Shown here: one piece after another, positions 2,847 through 19,811 of the stretch | How the letters are laid out: each line of letters starts with the position of its first letter | Numbering within the stretch: the stretch's first letter is position 1 | Source: Oscillospiraceae bacterium | GTDB taxonomy: Bacteria > Bacillota > Clostridia > Oscillospirales > Oscillospiraceae | Direction of reading: 5' to 3' | Assembly: GCA_017415775.1 (NCBI GenBank) | Contig: JAFQFC010000021.1 | Span: forward strand, 1-33,615 | DNA: 33,615 bases | Notes under the pieces: generated by a model | Databases searched by the model: none | Seen by the model: the letters and a program-made list of their open reading frames with translations, nothing else | What the model was told of the DNA's origin: nothing | Translations under genes and position numbers: made by a program

Positions 2847-3782
2847 ATGGGATTTTTCTTTGAAGGTTATACCGTTGCAACTGTACTGGGATTTCTCGCC
2901 CTTACGGCTGCTCTGGTGGTATTGAATGAACTGACCCGCCGCAGCAAGATTTTCTCAATACTTATATATTGTGTCCTGCCCGTAGTGCTGGTGGTACTGA
3001 TCGCTATGGATGTGGTCGGCAGCCCCTCCAGCAAAACATGGTTCGGCGTAATAAAGACCTACTCCGCGCTTGCAGGTGTTATCGGATTTATGCTGATCCG
3101 CTATACCAAGCTGGGCAACAAAAAGTTCGCATGGTATTTCCCTGTGGCAATTCTCGGCATCAATATTCTTGAGGCTATCTATCGCGACTATGAAGTATTT
3201 GCAACCTTTAAGACGATGACCGTTGATGCCGCCGGCATTGTACAGCTGGGTGGTCCCTGGAACCTGATGAATGCCCTTGCAGGCGTGTTCCTGCTGCTGA
3301 CCATGACTGGCTGGGTGGGTATCAAGGTTGCAAATACCAAGTCCCGTGACATGGTTTGGGCAGATCAGCTTTGGTTTTGGATCATTGCCTATGATCTGTG
3401 GAATATGGCGTACTGCTACAACTGCATTTCCACCCGTGCCATGTATGCCGGCTTTGCACTGCTGGTTTCCTGCACTGTTGCCGAGTTCTTCATCAAACGC
3501 GGCATCTGGCTGCAGCACCGCGCACAGACACTTGCTCTGTTCGGAATGTTCTCCCTGGCTGTGGATTATCAGGCTATGCCCGTGTTCTCCATTACCGCCA
3601 CTTACAATCCCACTGCATGGACTGTGCTGAGTGCCCTTGCACTCATCGTCAACGCAGCGGTATTTGTATATGAGGTTTGCGTCATCGTCAAGACAAAGCG
3701 CAATCCCCTCAAGAAGGAAATGTTCACGCATCTGCCCGCTTATCGCAAGAACCTTGAGGCAAACGGCCTGAGAGCAGAATAA
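2847..3782 (+). CDS. Polytopic membrane protein, DUF5692-like
   Basis: A 311-aa, strongly hydrophobic protein with about eight predicted membrane spans, for example VATVLGFLALTAALVVL near the N-terminus, IFSILIYCVLPVVLVVLIAMDV, FLLLTMTGWVGIKV and VLSALALIVNAAVFVYEVCVIV. The C-terminus is basic and probably cytoplasmic. It resembles the DUF5692 family of uncharacterised membrane proteins from anaerobic gut bacteria; the assignment is by memory of sequence character and is tentative. It is the last gene of the redox operon, 24 bases after the ferredoxin reductase, with GAAAGGATG as ribosome site, and is followed by a terminator. Its place suggests a membrane partner, substrate channel or quinone-linked anchor for the flavoprotein pair, but no catalytic motif is visible. 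Confidence 0.65.
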   Translation: MGFFFEGYTVATVLGFLALTAALVVLNELTRRSKIFSILIYCVLPVVLVVLIAMDVVGSPSSKTWFGVIKTYSALAGVIGFMLIRYTKLGNKKFAWYFPVAILGINILEAIYRDYEVFATFKTMTVDAAGIVQLGGPWNLMNALAGVFLLLTMTGWVGIKVANTKSRDMVWADQLWFWIIAYDLWNMAYCYNCISTRAMYAGFALLVSCTVAEFFIKRGIWLQHRAQTLALFGMFSLAVDYQAMPVFSITATYNPTAWTVLSALALIVNAAVFVYEVCVIVKTKRNPLKKEMFTHLPAYRKNLEANGLRAE

Positions 3783-3841
3783 TTCAACATAGCGATCAAT
3801 CACAGATACACAGATAAAGAGTCAGCCCTATTATTTTTAAT

Positions 3842-3884
3842 CGGAGTGGCGCAGCGAGAGCGGTGCCACTCCGGTTTTTGTTTT
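3842..3884 (+). terminator. Rho-independent terminator of the redox operon
   Basis: A nine-base stem (CGGAGTGGC at 3842-3850 pairing with GCCACTCCG at 3865-3873), a 14-base loop, and a T-rich tail GTTTTTGTTTT. It closes the operon ending at 3782 and marks the border to the AT-richer integrase remnant. Confidence 0.85.
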
Positions 3885-3906
3885 GCTGTGGTCTAAATTC
3901 TCCAAC

Positions 3907-4149
3907 ATGAAGCGGGACAGAATTGCTGACCTCTTAAATGATATACATGATGCTGCTAAAAAATGGGGTCTCGCCGAACAAACCATTCGACGTTACTGCC
4001 GTGAAGGATTAATTCCTGATGCAGTTCAAACCAATAGAAGTTGGTCACTTCCATATTCTGCTAAATGCCCAGTTAAATTTAGCTACTACATGGCGCAAAC
4101 TCCTCCCCTTTTAAAAAAAAATACTTTCACAAAAGGACAAACATATTAA
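3907..4149 (+). pseudogene. Remnant of a helix-turn-helix gene from a mobile element
   Basis: From ATG 3907 the frame encodes about 80 residues. The middle part (AAKKWGLAEQTIRRYCREGLI, then NRSWSLP) matches the layout of the small HTH proteins of integrative elements, which usually read EAA-x-WG-hs-xRRVQxLCxxGRI and then a W-x-IP beta turn. The C-terminus has no family character and is AT-rich, the gene has no convincing ribosome site, and its neighbour is a truncated integrase, so it is probably decaying. It could also be a working small excision or regulatory protein. Confidence 0.4.
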
Positions 4150-4177
4150 GGGGTTATATAACTACATACAAATTAAT

Positions 4178-4801
4178 ATGAGCTACTCTTCTTGTCGACT
4201 TGCAAGCAATCGGCTCACGAGAAATCATGTGGAGTATCTCTATACAAGCGGTCGACTGCTTGTTACTAATGAGAGCATGAAGCTGAATGATTATTGTGTG
4301 GATTTCGAGCGCAGTATCATCACTATTGACAAGCAGATGCAGCTTCATCAGGAAAAAGGATGTAAAGCCTATCAGCTGGTTCCCACCAAGAACGATAAGA
4401 TGCGCACCATCGTTGCCGCGCCTACCGTCATGACACAGCTGAAACGTCACCATATGATGCAGGCACAGCAAAAGTTGATGGCTGGCGCCGCATGGGGTAA
4501 CACGGACAACTTGGTATTCACGGACGCCTTAGGCAAACCCTTGATGAAATCCACTGTTTATCGAGAGTTCAAGAAGTTGGCTGCCGCTATCGGCCGTCCG
4601 GATGCCCGCTTCCACGATTTGCGTCACACCTTCGCCGTTGCCTCCATTCGCTCCGGCGATGACATCAAAACAATTCAGGGGAACCTTGGCCACGCCACCG
4701 CATCCTTCACACTGGATGTCTACGGTCATGTCACTATGCAGATGAAGCAAGCCAGCGCAGCACGTATGGAGGAATATATCAAAACCGTTTCTGTGGTATG
4801 A
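4178..4801 (+). pseudogene. Tyrosine recombinase (integrase), N-terminally truncated
   Basis: About 207 codons of the catalytic half of a phage or ICE-type tyrosine integrase. Visible active-site parts are HDLRHTFA (His-x-x-Arg), GNLGHATASFTLDVYGHV (second His and the nucleophilic Tyr) and the beta-sheet Lys region (LVPTKNDKMRTIVA). The SAM-like core-binding domain and the first catalytic Arg, expected just before the VDFERSIITIDKQ segment, are missing, so the protein should be inactive. The upstream DNA (4150-4200) has lower GC and no homologous continuation in another frame. The gene points at the 3' end of tRNA-Cys 136 bases away, the usual position of an integrase after insertion into a tRNA. 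This is therefore a remnant of an excised or eroded element. Confidence 0.8.
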
Positions 4802-4900
4802 AAAAGCACTACTTAACATCTGCTAAAACCCTTGGGCCGCAAGGATTTCGGAAGCTGGTAAGGCTAAAAATAAGGCTAAAAACGAAAAATAGGCATAAGA

Positions 4901-4933
4901 AAAACCCCGTAACCGTTGCGGTTACAGGGTTTT
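4901..4933 (-). terminator. Terminator of the tRNA operon
   Basis: A 14-bp stem with one mismatch (AAAACCCCGTAACC at 4901-4914 with GGTTACAGGGTTTT at 4920-4933) and a five-base loop. On the minus strand it is followed by TTCTTATGCC, giving a short U tract, just after the tRNA-Cys 3' end at 4937. It may also stop plus-strand transcripts from the integrase remnant. Confidence 0.75.
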
Positions 4934-4936
4934 CAT

Positions 4937-5011
4937 TGGAGGTGACACCCGGATTTGAACCGGGGAATGAAGGTTTTGCAGACCTTTGCCTTACCACTTG
5001 GCTATGTCACC
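4937..5011 (-). tRNA. tRNA-Cys (GCA)
   Basis: The reverse complement folds as a cloverleaf: acceptor GGTGACA/TGTCACC, D arm GCC...GGC, anticodon stem AAGGT/ACCTT with loop CTGCAAA (anticodon GCA), T arm CCCGG TTCAAAT CCGGG, and an encoded CCA. It is last in the five-tRNA operon, and its 3' end faces the integrase remnant. Confidence 0.95.
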
Positions 5012-5049
5012 ATATATGAGAAACGGAGCTTTCGCTCCGATTCTCATTT

Positions 5050-5125
5050 TGGAGCGGGCGACGAGGCTCGAACTCGCTACCTCGACCTTGGCAAGGTCGC
5101 GCTCTACCAGATGAGCTACGCCCGC
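5050..5125 (-). tRNA. tRNA-Gly (GCC)
   Basis: Cloverleaf on the minus strand: acceptor GCGGGCG/CGCCCGC, anticodon stem CGACC/GGTCG with loop TTGCCAA (anticodon GCC), T loop TTCGAGC, encoded CCA. Fourth gene of the tRNA operon. Confidence 0.95.
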
Positions 5126-5128
5126 AAA

Positions 5129-5204
5129 TGGTGCCTCCGGTCGGAGTCGAACCAACGACACGTGGATTTTCAGTCCACTGCTCTACCAACTGAGCTACAG
5201 AGGC
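5129..5204 (-). tRNA. tRNA-Phe (GAA)
   Basis: Cloverleaf on the minus strand: acceptor GCCTCTG with CGGAGGC, anticodon loop CTGAAAA (anticodon GAA), T loop TTCGACT, encoded CCA. Only three bases separate it from the tRNA-Gly gene. Confidence 0.95.
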
Positions 5205-5208
5205 ATAT

Positions 5209-5285
5209 TGGCGACCGAGAAGGGGCTCGAACCCTCGACCTCCAGCGTGACAGGCTGGCGTTCTAACCAACTGAACTACTCGGCC
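5209..5285 (-). tRNA. tRNA-Asp (GTC)
   Basis: Cloverleaf on the minus strand: acceptor GGCCGAG/CTCGGTC, anticodon stem CCAGC/GCTGG with loop CTGTCAC (anticodon GTC), T loop TTCGAGC, encoded CCA. Second gene of the operon. Confidence 0.95.
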
Positions 5286-5291
5286 AAATTC

Positions 5292-5368
5292 TGGTGGGAA
5301 CAACTGGACTCGAACCAGTGACCCCCTGCTTGTAAGGCAGGTGCTCTAACCAGCTGAGCTATGCTCCC
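5292..5368 (-). tRNA. tRNA-Val (TAC)
   Basis: Cloverleaf on the minus strand: acceptor GGGAGCA with TGTTCCC, anticodon stem CCTGC/GCAGG with loop CTTACAA (anticodon TAC), T loop TTCGAGT, encoded CCA. First gene of the operon, directly after the promoter. Confidence 0.95.
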
Positions 5369-14459: not shown

Positions 14460-15209
14460 CCGCACCGTGGCTATGTGTATGACACCGAGACCGAGCTGTA
14501 TTACCTCCAGAGCCGGTATTATAATCCGAGCTGGGGTAGATTCATCAATGCGGATGGACAGCTGAATGACGATCTCTTTGGCAACAACCAGTTTGCGTAT
14601 TGTGGTAATAATCCTGTTCTTAGAGAAGATTTTAGCGGAAATGCATTTACCTTTGCCTTTATAGCAACTTGCGGGCTTATTGGAGGACTTTCCAATGGGC
14701 TATTCAAGGTTATCACAAATGTATCTACTGGTCGCAACTGGAATGAGGGCGTTTTGGGTGCTGTTGCTGGGGGCATAACCTATGGAGTGACAGCTGTTCT
14801 AACCGGCGGAAATACTGTTGCTGCCAGTTATGCAAGCGCATTTGCTGAATCAATGGTAAACAACGCTTGCGCTTATAATAAAACGACGGCTCGAATTAAT
14901 GACAATGATACGGTTCTTGAGCCTACTCATGAGAATATAGACCAGTCAGCAAGAAGCGTCATACTTGAAACTGTCGGTTACGGAAGTCTTTACGCTGCAA
15001 CAAGTACACTCACACCCAAAAATTTTAACGTTGATTATGAGAATTGGTTTCAACCTCGTAAATTTTCGACTTGCTTCAATAGCAGTTATGTTCTTAAAGT
15101 AGCAGGGCAAGCAAACATTCAAAATGGCATTTTATGGGGGATCAATACAGCGGGAGCAATTGGACAGGAATTATACAAGCGGCAGAAAGCCACTATGATA
15201 ATGCCTTAA
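14460..15209 (+). pseudogene. 5'-truncated RHS protein: end of RHS core plus variable C-terminal domain
   Basis: The frame is open only from TGA 14448-14450. It begins inside the RHS-associated core (HRGYVYDTETELYYLQSRYYNPSWGRFINADG, then NQFAYCGNNPV), which normally closes a shell of many YD repeats; none are present. After the core boundary near residue 55 comes a glycine-rich hydrophobic region (IATCGLIGGLSNGLF; GVLGAVAGGITYGVTAVLTGG) and a C-terminal part with NWFQPRKF that shows no recognised toxin catalytic motif. GTG 14475 could start translation but has no ribosome site. This is the form of an orphan RHS tip, kept as a silent cassette beside possible immunity genes. GC is well below the flanks, pointing to transfer. 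Confidence 0.75.
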
Positions 15210-15218
15210 GGTAACGCT

Positions 15219-15965
15219 ATGAAAAGAAAACTTTTGCGCATATTTCTTTATTTCCATATATACAGCGGAGCGGCAAGTGCTATTTTATTTTTACCTTTTG
15301 CATTTGTTGCAGAAGCCATCGGCATTCCGGACGAGGTTATTTTGTCAATCATCTACTGCTTAGCTGGAGTTTTTGTTTGGTCAGCATTTGTGGTAACCAT
15401 ATTTGCTTTTTTAGGCATCGCGCCAGACCCAGAATTACCTCTGCAAAAGGCGGAAAAGCTAGTGCATCACACGGAAACTTTTGAAGTGTTAGCCAGAATT
15501 TTGCGTGAAAACCTCACGCAACAAGATTATCATCCTTCTGAATTGAGCAGTAGCGAGGATCCAGAATGTATTGAAATATATTCCAAACGCGAGACCCTTG
15601 GCGCAATCAAATGTGTCACTGTTGCTAGAATAAGCGAGCTGGATACTAATTATTTGGAACACACAAGCGATGAGGTGCAGAAATTCTTGAAGTCGTATTT
15701 CCGGGGTCACTTCTTTGCGAATCGGCTTGTTATGGTCTCATTTTTTTGTGTGGATCGGGTAACCCCCGCGTTTTACAACGTCATAAGTAAGAGCCAACTC
15801 ACAAATTTCAAAGTTCGCTATTTGCCGATAGGCATTTCTTTTGGCGGGAAAAAGGTTTATATTGCTAACCCCAAGAAGCATCCTCGCTGGTATAAGGCGG
15901 CAAGAGAAGAAGTTCTTCAACTCTTAAGCGGCATCGTGGATACAACAGACGCAGAGTCAACTTAA
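15219..15965 (+). CDS. Two-span membrane protein, candidate RHS-linked immunity or cargo protein
   Basis: A 248-aa protein. Two membrane spans in the first 70 residues (AASAILFLPFAFVAEAIGI and IIYCLAGVFVWSAFVVTIFAFLGIA) are followed by a soluble domain of about 170 residues, probably cytoplasmic, mixed alpha/beta (CVTVARISELDTNYL; FANRLVMVSFFCVDRV; YLPIGISFGGKKVYIANP). No family recognised. The start is nine bases after the RHS stop, with AAGGTAA before the ATG, so both are one transcript; in RHS systems this position holds the cognate immunity gene. That role is inferred from place only. AT-rich like the rest of the island. Confidence 0.6.
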   Translation: MKRKLLRIFLYFHIYSGAASAILFLPFAFVAEAIGIPDEVILSIIYCLAGVFVWSAFVVTIFAFLGIAPDPELPLQKAEKLVHHTETFEVLARILRENLTQQDYHPSELSSSEDPECIEIYSKRETLGAIKCVTVARISELDTNYLEHTSDEVQKFLKSYFRGHFFANRLVMVSFFCVDRVTPAFYNVISKSQLTNFKVRYLPIGISFGGKKVYIANPKKHPRWYKAAREEVLQLLSGIVDTTDAEST

Positions 15966-16056
15966 AATGCAAAGGATCTGGCCATTTACATTTCCGCAAC
16001 CTAATATCTCCGAAGCACAAATGGGCAGACCTTTCGCATTGCCCCCGCACCTACCA

Positions 16057-16083
16057 CCCGGGAGAGGTAACCCCTCTCCCGGG
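16057..16083. repeat. Perfect hairpin, copy 1 (11-bp arms, loop TAACC)
   Basis: Arms CCCGGGAGAGG (16057-16067) and CCTCTCCCGGG (16073-16083) around loop TAACC, followed by ACGATAAAA. The element is the exact reverse complement of the hairpin at 16452-16478, while the outer flanks (AC before, ACGATAAAA after) keep the same direction. No T run follows, so it is not a standard terminator. Confidence 0.9.
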
Positions 16084-16132
16084 ACGATAAAACAGGCAAT
16101 TTACAGAACCTAAGCTTGCAAGGAGATTTTTT

Positions 16133-16396
16133 ATGCGCGATGATTTTCCGTATTACCATGTTCTTGATCCCGAAGGAAAACTTGATGATCATAGCATAGA
16201 GCGAAATCAAACACGTAGCAGACCAAAGGCGATTCACTATATCTGGCGCTGTATATTGTGTTTAGTAAGTGCGGGTTATTTTATCTATGGAGTCATTTTC
16301 TATGAGCAGAAAGTGCTTTATGGTGCCTCTGCTATCCCATTTGTCTATGGAGCCATAGATCAAATTAAATGCCTTTGGCAAGAATGGCGAAAATAG
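16133..16396 (+). CDS. Small two-span membrane protein between the paired hairpins
   Basis: An 87-aa protein: polar N-terminus (DDFPYYHVLDPEGKLDDHSIERNQ), a basic turn (TRSRPK), then two hydrophobic segments (YIWRCILCLVSAGYFIYGVIF and VLYGASAIPFVYGAI) and a short charged end. A strong AAGGAG lies seven bases before the ATG. No family recognised. The gene is exactly bracketed by the two inverted-loop hairpins, suggesting a cassette unit. A membrane immunity protein is a possible role, but there is no direct evidence. Confidence 0.6.
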   Translation: MRDDFPYYHVLDPEGKLDDHSIERNQTRSRPKAIHYIWRCILCLVSAGYFIYGVIFYEQKVLYGASAIPFVYGAIDQIKCLWQEWRK

Positions 16397-16451
16397 AAGG
16401 GCGGTTGTAAGCAAAAGACGGCAAATCTCTTGCATTTCCCACAACTCATCA

Positions 16452-16478
16452 CCCGGGAGAGGGGTTACCTCTCCCGGG
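16452..16478. repeat. Perfect hairpin, copy 2 (11-bp arms, loop GGTTA)
   Basis: Arms CCCGGGAGAGG (16452-16462) and CCTCTCCCGGG (16468-16478) around loop GGTTA, followed by ACGATAAAA. The about 35 bases before each copy also align loosely (CTTTCGCATTGCCC versus CTCTTGCATTTCCC), so the two are diverged direct repeats in which only the loop is flipped. Confidence 0.9.
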
Positions 16479-16585
16479 ACGATAAAAACCGGCCGCTATA
16501 GCCCCAGTTATTTCCAATTCCTTTCCGCCCAATTTTGCCCTCGCAGCTATACATAGCCGCAAGAGACCTCACGAAAGGAGCCGCC

Positions 16586-16912
16586 ATGAACCGCTATCCC
16601 ATCACCATTGACGAAAACGGCTGCGCCGTGCTGTGCACTGCGCTGCGCCAGCAGTTGGGCGACACCGTGGTGGTCACCCTCGGCAAGGATCGATCGCTGC
16701 AGTTTTACTCTGCCGCAGAATGGTCTGCCGGTCTTGATCGCCTGACCCCCGAGGCGCTGCGCCGGATGCGGCCCATGATCGCCTCCGCCGCACAGCTGGA
16801 TCTCGCCGCTGACGCCGTCTCCCTCCCCGCCGCACTGCTGGCCTATGCACAGCTGGAAGGCAGCGCCGTTCTGCATGAGGAAGAGGGCTGTTGGTATCTC
16901 TGCGCCGAATAA
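16586..16912 (+). CDS. Degenerate MraZ-like (AbrB-fold) protein
   Basis: A 108-aa protein that can be laid over the MraZ pattern of two AbrB-like halves: IDENGCAVLCTALRQQLGDTVVVTLGKDRSLQFYSAAEW, then LDRLTPEALRRMRPMIASAAQLDLAADAVSLPAALLAYAQL and a final beta strand. True MraZ carries a D-x-x-x-R motif in each half (DxKGR, DxxGR); here these read DENGC and DLAAD, so both Arg are lost and DNA binding as in MraZ is doubtful. It is also about 35 residues shorter and far from a division cluster. GAAAGGAG precedes the ATG 16586. It converges on the retron RT and shares its terminator. Family call is by pattern only. Confidence 0.5.
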   Translation: MNRYPITIDENGCAVLCTALRQQLGDTVVVTLGKDRSLQFYSAAEWSAGLDRLTPEALRRMRPMIASAAQLDLAADAVSLPAALLAYAQLEGSAVLHEEEGCWYLCAE

Positions 16913-16933
16913 CGCACTTTTTGACAGCAAAAA

Positions 16934-16966
16934 AGGACTGACGCCATGCGTCAGTCCTCTTTTTAT
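16934..16966. terminator. Bidirectional terminator between the MraZ-like gene and the retron RT
   Basis: Stem AGGACTGACGC (16934-16944) with GCGTCAGTCCT (16948-16958) and a three-base loop, with CTTTTTAT on the plus side and, on the minus strand, TTTTTTGC. It lies 22 bases after the plus gene and 12 bases after the RT stop at 16971, so it ends both transcripts. Confidence 0.9.
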
Positions 16967-16970
16967 GCAT

Positions 16971-18068
16971 TTATGCACTCCACCAGAAGGGCATGCCCCG
17001 GTGCAGCCGATGCAGGCCGGTCAGCAATTCCAGCCGGGCCCGCAGGGCCTGCTGGTCCATGGGGTTCACCTGCAAAATGTAGCCCACCTTACCCAACAGA
17101 TGCAGGGCATACGGCTCCTGCCCGCCGGCCTCCTGCACGCCCTGTGCATCCGCTCCGTAGCGTTTCAGGTAATGGAGCTTCTGCCGCACCTCTCGGCGGT
17201 AGCGGCGGGAGACCTGCACCTTCTCGTTGACGGACAGGCCCAGCACCGCCATATGGCGGCCCTGCCGGATGATGCGGGTCTTGTCCCTGTTCAGTTCAAA
17301 GCCCTCCGACCGGAGGAAGTCCCGGGCCAGCTTCACGATCCGTGCAGCGTCGGCGCTGCGGTCGCTGCTGCTGAGGTAGATGTCATCGGCGTAGCGGGTA
17401 TAGGTAAAGCCCAGCATCGCCGCCATAGCGCCAAAGGTTCCGTCCATCCCGGCCATCGCCAGATTGGACAGCGCCGGACTGGTCACCGCACCCTGGGGCA
17501 GACGGCCGTTCTCGCAGCACAGTCCTGCCAGAAAATCGCACAGCTCCTCCTCGTAGCCGGTAGCACGGTGGAGGGCGAAGGACACTTTTTCCTCCGTAAT
17601 ACTGGGGAAAAAGTCCCGGATATCCAAATGCACCAGCACCTCTGCCCCGCAATGGGGCTCGGCACAGCGGCGCAGCGGCACACCCTTACGGTAGGCGCAG
17701 GCCCGGGGCGACAGGGGCAGTCGGCTAAGGAGATTTTTGTAGATAAACCGCTGGTGATCCCGCAGTTCATAGCAGGGCACGCTGATGCGGCGCACACCGC
17801 TGCCGCCGTTCTTTCGCACCAGCATGTGGTGATAGTAGCCGCTGCCGCTTTTGGCCATCAGCAGGGCTTCCCGGTGCTGGCGCCACAGGTTTTTCCGCGA
17901 GGTCTCGCCGTGGCACTTCCAAAGAGTATACGACAGGGGCGACCACAGCGGCGGAAGGCCTTCCTTGACCTCCTCCATGTCCGGCACCTCGTCGGGCCGA
18001 AACCGTGCCTGCATCAGCACCTGCAGATCCGCTGCAGAAAACAGCACCTGCTTCCCTTCCCATTTCAT
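16971..18068 (-). CDS. Retron-type reverse transcriptase
   Basis: A 365-aa RT. Catalytic blocks in order: LDIRDFFPSI (148-157, first Asp), LPQGAVTSPALSN (190-202), YTRYADDIYLSSS with YADD at 226-229, and a C-terminal thumb (LLGKVGYILQVNP, 324-336). Retron marks: RRCAEPHC at 133-140 fits the NAxxH region just before the first Asp block, and VLGLSVN at 275-281 fits the VTG region followed by a basic RRYRREVR stretch; both differ slightly from the usual retron residues. There is no maturase, endonuclease or fused effector domain. The start at ATG 18068 avoids the ncRNA locus just upstream. The enzyme should copy part of that RNA into msDNA attached to it through a 2'-5' bond. Its own terminator lies 12 bases behind. 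Confidence 0.92.
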   Translation of the reverse strand: MKWEGKQVLFSAADLQVLMQARFRPDEVPDMEEVKEGLPPLWSPLSYTLWKCHGETSRKNLWRQHREALLMAKSGSGYYHHMLVRKNGGSGVRRISVPCYELRDHQRFIYKNLLSRLPLSPRACAYRKGVPLRRCAEPHCGAEVLVHLDIRDFFPSITEEKVSFALHRATGYEEELCDFLAGLCCENGRLPQGAVTSPALSNLAMAGMDGTFGAMAAMLGFTYTRYADDIYLSSSDRSADAARIVKLARDFLRSEGFELNRDKTRIIRQGRHMAVLGLSVNEKVQVSRRYRREVRQKLHYLKRYGADAQGVQEAGGQEPYALHLLGKVGYILQVNPMDQQALRARLELLTGLHRLHRGMPFWWSA

Positions 18069-18127
18069 CGCTCCATCGCCCCTTTCCCGCTGATTTTCGT
18101 CTGTTTTTTCTTCCGGAGAAGATAATA

Positions 18128-18145
18128 CGGCGGGGAAATGATGTA
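18128..18145 (-). repeat. Retron a2 repeat (3' arm)
   Basis: The 18 bases are the exact reverse complement of 18266-18283. Pairing of the two arms closes the ncRNA and places the priming G at 18265 next to the 3' end of the msd template. Confidence 0.88.
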
Positions 18146-18265
18146 CTGCTTCAGGGTACGATTCCACGGAAAGAAGCTTTCCGTGCGAATCGTTGGTCCG
18201 CAAACTGCAAATCGGAGCGGCGACTCGCCGCCCCCGTGCCGGCACAAAACGCAGGTCACTAAGGC

Positions 18266-18283
18266 TACATCATTTCCCCGCCG
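18266..18283 (-). repeat. Retron a1 repeat (5' arm)
   Basis: Perfect 18-bp complement of the arm at 18128-18145. A separate small hairpin (GCCGCC/GGCGGC, 18303-18286) stands just before it in the leader. Confidence 0.88.
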
Positions 18284-18325
18284 AAGCCGCCTCCCGTGGC
18301 GGCCGCAGTTGGTCTTTGTACTTGC

Positions 18326-18354
18326 ATTATAGCACCGGTAATTCTTCCCTGCAA
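18326..18354 (-). promoter_or_regulatory. Promoter of the retron ncRNA-RT transcript
   Basis: On the minus strand TTGCAG (18349-18354), a spacer of exactly 17 bases, and TATAAT (18326-18331). Transcription would begin near 18318, about 35 bases before a1. Such a strong constitutive-type promoter fits production of an abundant structural RNA. The rest of the gap up to 18421 holds no other clear signal. Confidence 0.8.
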
Positions 18355-18421
18355 TCCCGTATTCCCCGAATGGCTGCCAAAATTTTCTCAAAAAGTTTGT
18401 GCATTATGCTAATAAACGACA

Positions 18422-18454
18422 GATGCGCACAGCCCGGAAAGGGCTGTGCGCATC
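18422..18454 (-). terminator. Terminator-like hairpin after the CoA-transferase gene
   Basis: A 14-bp perfect stem (GATGCGCACAGCCC at 18422-18435 with GGGCTGTGCGCATC at 18441-18454) and a five-base loop, 17 bases after the gene's stop on the minus strand. The following T tract is weak (TGTCGTTTATT), but the stem is very stable. It separates the nifJ-but operon from the retron. Confidence 0.75.
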
Positions 18455-18470
18455 ACGTTTGTATGTTTTT

Positions 18471-19811
18471 TTACCGCTGGTTGGACCGGCGCCAGATTTT
18501 CATGCGCTCCGCCTCACGGATCAGGTCCTCCCGGAAGTCCGGGTGGGCAATGGAAATGATCTTCTCGGCACGCTGCCAGGTGGCGGCGCCCTTCAGGTTC
18601 ACCGCACCGTACTCCGTCACCAGATAGTGGGTGTTGCAGCGGGTATCGGTGACCACCGAGCCTTCCTTCAGGGTGGGGCGGATGCGGCTTTGCACCACAC
18701 CGTTTCTGTCGGTCATGGTGGAAGAGCAGCAGATAAAGCTCTTGCCGCCGGGGGACATATAGGCGCCCAGCACAAAGTCCAGCTGACCGCCGGAGCCGCT
18801 GATGTGGCGCACGCCGGAGCTTTCGGCGTTGACCTGACCGAAGAGATCCACGTCCACGGCGTTGTTGATGGAGATGAAGTTCTCCAGCTGGGCCATCACC
18901 CGGGCATCGTTGGTATAATCCACCGAGGTGGACAGACACTCCGGATTCTCATGGAGATAATCGTACAGCTTCTGGGTACCCATGCCGAAGGCATAGACCT
19001 GCAGGCCTCTGTCGATGCTCTTATGGCGGCCGGTGATTTTTCCGGCACGGGCCATGTCCACAAAGGCGTCCACATACATTTCGGTGTGGATGCCCAGATC
19101 CTTCAGGTCAGACTGGGCGATCAGCGTACCCACGGCATTGGGCATACCGCCGATGCCCAGCTGCAGGCAGGCGCCGTTGGGGATCTGCTCCACCACCAGC
19201 CGGGCCACCGCCCGGTCCACTTCGCTGGGATTGGCAGGAGGCAGCTGACGCAGAGGCTGTTGGCCCGCCTCCACCACGAAGTCTACTTCAGAGATATGGA
19301 TGCGGCTGGCCTCCGTGCCGAAGCAGCGGGGCTGGCACTCGTTGACCTCCACGATCACATACTCGGACCGCTCGCACACCGCCTGCAGATGGGAGGTGCT
19401 CAGGCCGAAGCTGAAATAGCCCTCCTCATCCATGGGTGCCACCTGCAGCATGGCGGCACGGATGGGGTCCACGTTTTCCCGGTAGTAACGGGGAAGCTCG
19501 GAGTAGCGCAGAGGGATGTACCAGGCGATGCCTTCTTCCATCATCTTGCGTTCCAGACCGCTGAAGTGCCAGGAGTGCCAGGTAAAATGCTCCGCCGTAT
19601 CGGGAACAGAGAACATCTTGGGCCGCCAGGTCAACACCGCACCGCGGGCCTTCACATCATACAATTCTTCCCAGCGCTCCGCCAGAGCGGCATCCAGCGT
19701 TTCCGGGGCACTGGCGCACCAGCCGAAGTCGATCCAGTCACCGCTGCGGACCACCTGCACAGCCTCCCGGGCCGTACGGAGCTTGCGCTGATATTCTTCT
19801 CTATAGTTCAT
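18471..19811 (-). CDS. but: Butyryl-CoA:acetate CoA-transferase
   Basis: A 446-aa family I CoA-transferase. It follows the layout of the butyryl-CoA:acetate enzymes of Faecalibacterium and Roseburia nearly throughout: [10 protein letters not shown] start, [41 protein letters not shown] (glycine-rich CoA loop, near residues 214-226), [45 protein letters not shown] and the end IWRRSN. It moves CoA from butyryl-CoA to acetate, releasing butyrate and regenerating acetyl-CoA in the cytosol. The ATG at 19811 is four bases after the nifJ stop, so both are one operon. 4-Hydroxybutyrate CoA-transferases are close relatives, but the match in detail favours butyrate. Confidence 0.88.

Follow-up and report, generated by a model that had tools for sequence, protein, structure and literature searches.

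What is an element that has the reverse transcriptase (RT) and the RNA of a retron and no effector gene beside them? The question is raised by a locus in a 33,615-nucleotide stretch of an Oscillospiraceae bacterium genome (assembly GCA_017415775.1, contig JAFQFC010000021.1, positions 1 to 33,615 of the forward strand), referred to here as the window. We consider it probable that the locus is a stand-alone retron, with no effector gene adjacent, and that in its RNA and its organisation it is most like Ec107 (Retron-Eco5) of Escherichia coli. The intact RT frame, the anatomy of the RNA and the conservation of that RNA in relatives were observed directly. A first-pass annotation of this DNA had already read the locus as a retron, an interpretation upheld by RT models and by RNA parts that recur in relatives. 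Three points go beyond it: the lack of an effector beside the locus, Ec107 as the nearest characterised relative, and an RT that departs from two signature motifs.

Anatomy and conservation of the retron RNA

The features of the locus are collected in Table 1. When the sequence was re-read, the parts named in the first-pass annotation were found where it had placed them, namely an RT with YADD and LPQGAVTSPALSN, a perfect 18-bp repeat (a1/a2) framing a non-coding RNA, a G directly after a1, a two-step hairpin in the msd and a gap of 59 bases between a2 and the ATG of the RT at 18068, from which the frame runs intact to 16971. The non-coding RNA beside the RT has paired a1/a2 ends, and their inverted-repeat score (46) was above all 920 pooled shuffle scores (maximum 35.5) from the 46-locus search set out below. 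The RNA from 18318 to 18120 folded at -100.3 kcal/mol (z -6.7), with 0 of 200 shuffles as good, and the predicted msd single-stranded DNA folded as DNA at -16.5 kcal/mol (z -4.6). At gathering cut-offs, Rfam reported five tRNAs only in the window and no retron RNA family. Of the promoter proposed ahead of the RNA, the 17-base spacing between TTGCAG (18354-18349) and TATAAT (18331-18326) and the perfect -10 element stood, whereas the -35 element is weak, matching TTGACA at three of six positions, and a consensus promoter scan called no promoter in 16400-18700.

Table 1. Features of the retron locus, in window coordinates
Feature	Coordinates	Strand	Basis
Terminator-like palindrome 3' of the CoA-transferase gene, ahead of the retron	18422..18454	-	Terminator scan
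Promoter-like TTGCAG-17-TATAAT, 5' of the retron RNA	18326..18354	-	Sequence read; absent from consensus promoter scan
a1 repeat of the retron RNA, CGGCGGGGAAATGATGTA	18266..18283 (18283-18266)	-	Sequence; inverted-repeat score higher than in any of 920 shuffles
Predicted branch G (2'-5' priming residue), abutting a1	18265	-	A then G common in homologues; chemistry inferred from known retrons
First msr stem-loop (variable)	18236..18259	-	Minimum free energy (MFE) fold; sequence varies among aligned relatives
Second msr stem-loop, with nonamer GCGAGTCGC at 18228-18220	18214..18234	-	MFE fold, alignment, consensus stem, covariance-model hit 18273-18207
Predicted msd, approximate single-stranded DNA copied off the RNA, far limit inferred	18146..18210	+	Position by analogy with known retrons
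Two-step msd hairpin	18158..18193	-	Sequence, RNA fold, DNA fold
a2 repeat, exact reverse complement of a1	18128..18145	-	Sequence; inverted-repeat search
Retron RT, 365 aa, YADD active site	16971..18068	-	Sequence, protein models, tree
Terminator-like palindrome beyond the RT	16934..16958	-	Scan lists + strand only; - strand T-run read directly

Loci of related RTs (numbered L) were used to follow these parts in homologues. A loose GAGTCGC-type pattern lay upstream of the RT in 56 of 90 oriented loci. The exact nonamer GCGAGTCGC, expected about 0.0035 times per 700 nt, was present within 700 nt upstream of the RT in 41 of 55 loci on the Ec107 side (one further locus had too little sequence), in 1 of 22 loci of the type XIII group and in none of the 6 on the III-A side, two of which carry GTGAGTCAC. 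It occurs once in the whole window and 7 times in 1.41 Mb elsewhere. After the addition of Ec107 and removal of the duplicates L002, L008, L030, L033 and L049, 86 loci were scanned; in the 46 that contain GCGAGTCGC or GTGAGTCAC, the best inverted repeat around the nonamer was sought. The score exceeded the 95% point of the 920 pooled shuffles in 31 of these 46 and the 99% point in 22. A followed by G, a feature unused by the search, is found where a1 ends in 29 of the 46, where about 3 would be expected with random bases; the loci are mutually related, so these counts are not independent. The G directly after a1, conserved in homologues in the manner of retrons, is a good candidate for the branch residue.

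In an alignment of 23 relatives, from which the window was excluded, both partners had changed in 5 of the 8 pairs of the second msr stem; RNAalifold predicted no consensus stem for the first. The covariance model built from these 23 sequences found the window at 18273-18207 with 27.8 bits, the best score in the whole host genome (next 14.6), and gave 31 matches at E 1 or better on 59 loci. Conservation of the RNA parts in homologous loci had been named at the outset as a condition on which the retron reading would stand or fall, and both the a1-end A and G and the recovery of the msr hairpin by a window-free model came out in its favour. The hairpin with GCGAGTCGC, which we identify here as a property of the Ec107 side, is present in the window.

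The reverse transcriptase and its placement

In PADLOC, the window RT matched RT_Ec107-like first (259.2 bits) and RT_III-A second (257.2 bits); the retron type names used here are PADLOC model names together with recall. Pfam found RVT_1 in this protein and nowhere else in the host assembly. Among NCBIfam models a St85-type retron RT led with 200 bits, under its cut-off of 235, followed by group II maturase (58) and defence-associated RT (DRT) models (45 or less), and the best solved-structure match was the Ec86 RT, over residues 79-301. Retron RT models or structures rank first in all three comparisons, in agreement with the earlier assignment, and on these models the protein belongs to the retron clade; RT placement, which the first-pass annotation had also made a test of its reading, came out in favour of a retron. 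It is very improbable that we are dealing with a group II intron, diversity-generating retroelement or DRT enzyme next to a chance inverted repeat; such a reading could call on the weak matches that models for group II maturases and DRTs also gave, but the best retron model is ahead of group II maturase by about 142 bits, and the RNA parts that recur in relatives contradict it. The tree of 88 RTs described below is no test of retron-clade membership, because only retron-type RTs were included.

Neither of two retron signatures, NAxxH and VTG, is present in the window RT, which reads CAEPH and VLG. According to the part of PMC6868368 that was accessible, NAxxH is found in 14 of 16 validated retron RTs and the VTG triplet in 14. 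CAEPH is not disqualifying, because two validated retrons also vary at N, and neither is VLG, because Ec48 and Vc81 also vary in the triplet, Ec48 being altered at both motifs (PMC6868368, same portion). The two changes and the long terminal branch of the RT would also suit a decaying retron, with the frame still open, the motifs eroded and DNA production lost. We regard decay as improbable, given a complete frame, an intact YADD, an a1/a2 repeat perfect over 18 bp, an intact msr hairpin and the validated RTs changed at the same motifs. The QGAVTSP of the window RT is common to a relative from Pseudocitrobacter.

The RT is divergent, with at most about 42% identity to anything found. Matches at E 1e-20 or better occurred in 12 of 300 genomes of the family, the window's own included and the others at most 41% identical; 3 of 32 genus genomes had a match, as did 20 of 394 from the order at 1e-30. 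A profile scan of a species collection, with the best 80 of 564 relatives kept, gave a best identity of 42% among the matches listed, and plasmid and phage records gave about 35%, likewise among those listed. Single-sequence scans of species and viral contig collections returned no relative. For related RTs, dN/dS was 0.06-0.38 in 11 of 13 pairs, the value of 0.38 coming from a pair within the window's own genus; dS was saturated in two of the 13 (Ec107 versus Pseudocitrobacter) and high in some others.

In a quick tree of 88 RTs the window branched basally on the side that holds Ec107 and III-A, at a node with no support star, next to L084 and with L009, L039, L047 and L035 near. Constrained placements were compared by approximately unbiased (AU) tests, for groups named after the tree had been seen. 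Grouping the window with five III-A-side rows cost 14.9 log units (p-AU 0.07), grouping with a 16-row Clostridia subclade gave p-AU 0.11, and none of the three placements, the third being with the Ec107 side, was rejected. By model score, then, the RT is closest to Ec107-like, with a lead of only 2 bits over RT_III-A, and in the free quick tree it lies outside the Ec107-side clade.

A number of results weigh against an Ec107-like assignment, or leave it less firm. In the quick tree the window sits on a long branch (1.26) outside the 57 Ec107-side rows, and forcing it among them carries a cost of 5.8 log units (p-AU 0.28). At the variable position of YxDD the window has A, whereas the 57 Ec107-side RTs are divided between C (45) and S (12). 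Among the 88 aligned RTs it is alone in having L at the T of VTG, and it is one of four without the N of NAxxH. A profile of the N-terminal region of the Clostridia subclade failed to place the window RT (E 0.26). The two PADLOC models themselves separate these RTs poorly, since the Ec107-side L031 scores 349.8 bits with III-A and 348.9 with Ec107-like. The whole-genome E-value of the covariance-model hit is a modest 0.007 (150 of 429 candidates scored), and dN/dS has no value for the window RT itself because no relative above about 42% identity was found.

Several of these observations would fit descent, of both RT and RNA, from a type III-A retron that has lost its phosphoribosyltransferase (PRTase) and winged-helix effector genes. 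The two RT scores are nearly equal, YADD occurs in 6 of 6 III-A-side loci and in 0 of 57 Ec107-side RTs, and the neighbour in the tree, L084, has PRTase_III-A upstream of its RT, as do L009 and L047 (L039, whose RT is III-A by model, has a phospholipase D-like gene instead). Yet the window has neither a PRTase nor a winged-helix gene beside the RT and so does not show the III-A operon; a genome-wide search gave nothing beyond a PRTase-CE hit of 19.9 bits, under the cut-off of 27. It carries the exact msr nonamer, which is absent from the six III-A-side loci, and its grouping with III-A-side RTs has the cost given above, although it is not rejected. We judge this origin rather unlikely, and prefer the Ec107-like reading.

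Comparison with Ec107 and the genes around the retrons

The nearest characterised retron is Ec107. In both loci the RNA lies upstream of the RT, a1 ends with A before the G, the hairpin carries GCGAGTCGC and RT_Ec107-like is the top model; neither has an accessory gene next to it, Ec107 being flanked by pyrE and slmA. They differ in that the RTs are 33% identical, the distance from the msr core to a2 is 120 nt in Ec107 and 74 nt in the window, NAxxH and VTG are altered in the window, and Ec107 has YCDD where the window has YADD (PMC6868368, in part). The Pseudocitrobacter locus of our scan matched a retron in 373 of 5426 complete E. coli genomes at 60-80% identity, in one place per genome and always on the chromosome. 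Two of these copies were opened, and both lay between pyrE and slmA with no other gene, presumably at the published Ec107 site between pyrE and ttk (slmA). The E. coli records include L124 and L125; one of the opened RTs is annotated with an internal stop and the other is intact, scoring 440.7 bits with RT_Ec107-like and having the same RNA plan as the window. Known since the early 1990s, Ec107 takes the place of a palindromic intergenic stretch of 34 bp, with no mobile element nearby; phosphate starvation and stationary phase both induce it (PMC6868368).

Two other retron types bear comparison. Type XIII (SWIM and HEAT/WGR proteins) has related RTs, but its loci share upstream genes, one common to 12 of 17 and another to 10 of 17 (neighbours within 3 kb), and the nonamer is rare among them; the PADLOC names for this type were checked on one locus, L054. 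Retron-Eco1 (Ec86), of type II-A, gave the best structural match, but the Ec107-like and III-A models fit the window RT better than II-A does, and Retron-Eco1 has an accessory gene (PMC8989520, in the part seen).

As in Ec107-like retrons, no accessory gene stands beside the window RT. The unit of RNA and RT is bounded by the terminator-like hairpins at 18454-18422 and 16958-16934 (the terminator scan found 5 such sites in all, against 2.4 expected), and its flanks, which include no effector gene, are a CoA-transferase gene and, downstream and convergent to the RT, a gene (16535-16912) for a 125-aa protein with a weak MraZ-like match. A search for an empty site by way of the CoA-transferase gene found relatives of that gene in 18 of 31 other genus genomes and no blastn match past the gene end in 28 other loci; parts of two loci were read, and no insertion boundary could be drawn. 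The notion that retrons of this kind favour convergent sites was dropped, as an upstream gene pointing inward and a downstream gene pointing back were found in 9 of 48 loci (the window's own entry set by hand).

From 54 Ec107-side loci 183 near-neighbour proteins were obtained, and 150 of them, from 44 loci, were scanned. No retron effector was found among the families listed for these 150 proteins (25 of 85 from PADLOC and 25 of 150 from Pfam), rarer singletons lying outside that listing. The listed families comprise WYL (5), PDC-S26 nuclease (2), defence singletons such as AbiEi/AbiEii, and housekeeping genes. In a count of 41 loci of the Ec107 side, which still includes the window and the III-A-side L039 and L047, the most shared neighbour family within 3 kb was a WYL regulator, in 6 of 41 and at varied places (L016, L021, L022, L063, L069 and L080). 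It also occurs near L094 and is absent near the window; Pfam confirmed the domain in L016, L022, L063, L080 and L094. WYL genes look enriched near related RTs, given that eight related genomes yielded 16 WYL hits altogether. The occurrence of WYL regulators beside defence systems is already on record (PMC9122601, as far as accessible). L094 itself (3650-4714 of MT838960.1, deposited as a gut bacteriophage) is an Ec107-side retron with a perfect 20-bp a1/a2 repeat, and its record also holds a PD-(D/E)XK gene besides the WYL gene.

Small sets of loci share genes (L015, L026 and L046; L028, L033 and L043; L048 and L085). The downstream gene of the first set was rejected as an effector, being dihydrodipicolinate synthase, an ordinary enzyme, in the two checked, and so was that of L029, an aldo/keto reductase. 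The 310-aa gene of L028, common to L043, had no family match.

The window retron might also work with a partner encoded elsewhere in the genome. None is adjacent to it, as such an arrangement would have it; against this, the one family searched for, PRTase-CE, gave the sub-threshold hit mentioned above, in an assembly of 75 contigs with about 76% completeness and 4% contamination. Claims of genome-wide absence are limited because of that completeness, and we hold a distant partner to be possible but on balance doubtful.

Other features of the window and of related genomes are given for completeness. At 14475-16396 an RHS core match (TIGR03696) is followed by two open frames, 15219-15965 and 16133-16396, neither of which matched a family; this may be the tail of a polymorphic toxin with its immunity genes. 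Five tandem tRNA genes (Val, Asp, Phe, Gly, Cys) lie on the minus strand at 4937-5368, adjoined by a phage-integrase-family frame (4178-4801), and the whole of 4178-5368 is a possible integration site. On contig 26 of a genome of the same order (G461), two retron-type RT matches (164998-165720 and 169617-170435) are separated by about 4 kb, and one of them contains two in-frame TAG stops. In the window's family, L010, L011 and L012 have RTs of greater length (about 577 aa for the last two, with L010 cut by a contig end); L011 and L012 are the probable source of very strong RT-Toprim type I-C matches.

Proposed mode of action and significance

In the mode of action that we favour, the promoter at about 18354-18326 would drive a transcript that comprises the RT message as well as the msr-msd RNA. 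The a1 and a2 ends would pair, and the RT would bind the msr hairpin with the GCGAGTCGC core and prime from the 2' hydroxyl of G18265. Copying of roughly 60-65 bases next to a2 would then yield a branched single-stranded DNA (multicopy single-stranded DNA, msDNA) with one long hairpin. The putative role of the retron is most likely defence against phages or a related response to stress, and its effector may lie elsewhere or not be required.

In the literature open to us, retrons are described as a three-part defence made of an RT, msDNA and an accessory, often toxic, protein. Many gut Clostridia carry units of the Ec107 side that share the RNA core but no partner gene, and the RT pairs compared show purifying selection. 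It is conceivable, though less likely than not, that effectorless retrons related to Ec107 are widespread and kept by selection in gut Clostridia and that, in contrast to the toxin-guard retrons with their three parts, they act by means of msDNA alone or with the help of a host partner common to them; the window would then carry a far-diverged member or a case of independent effector loss. The Ec107-like group as such is already known, because PADLOC has an Ec107-like model, and the window retron adds to a known, poorly understood kind. Our literature search, with most subscription papers outside its scope, found no paper on effectorless Ec107-side retrons in gut Clostridia. These units turn an oddity of E. 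coli into a comparative question, namely what purpose msDNA serves where no effector stands beside the retron. The window contributes a far-diverged RT, accompanied by a short msd, that can serve both this question and, as a further enzyme, the testing of RTs for DNA production.
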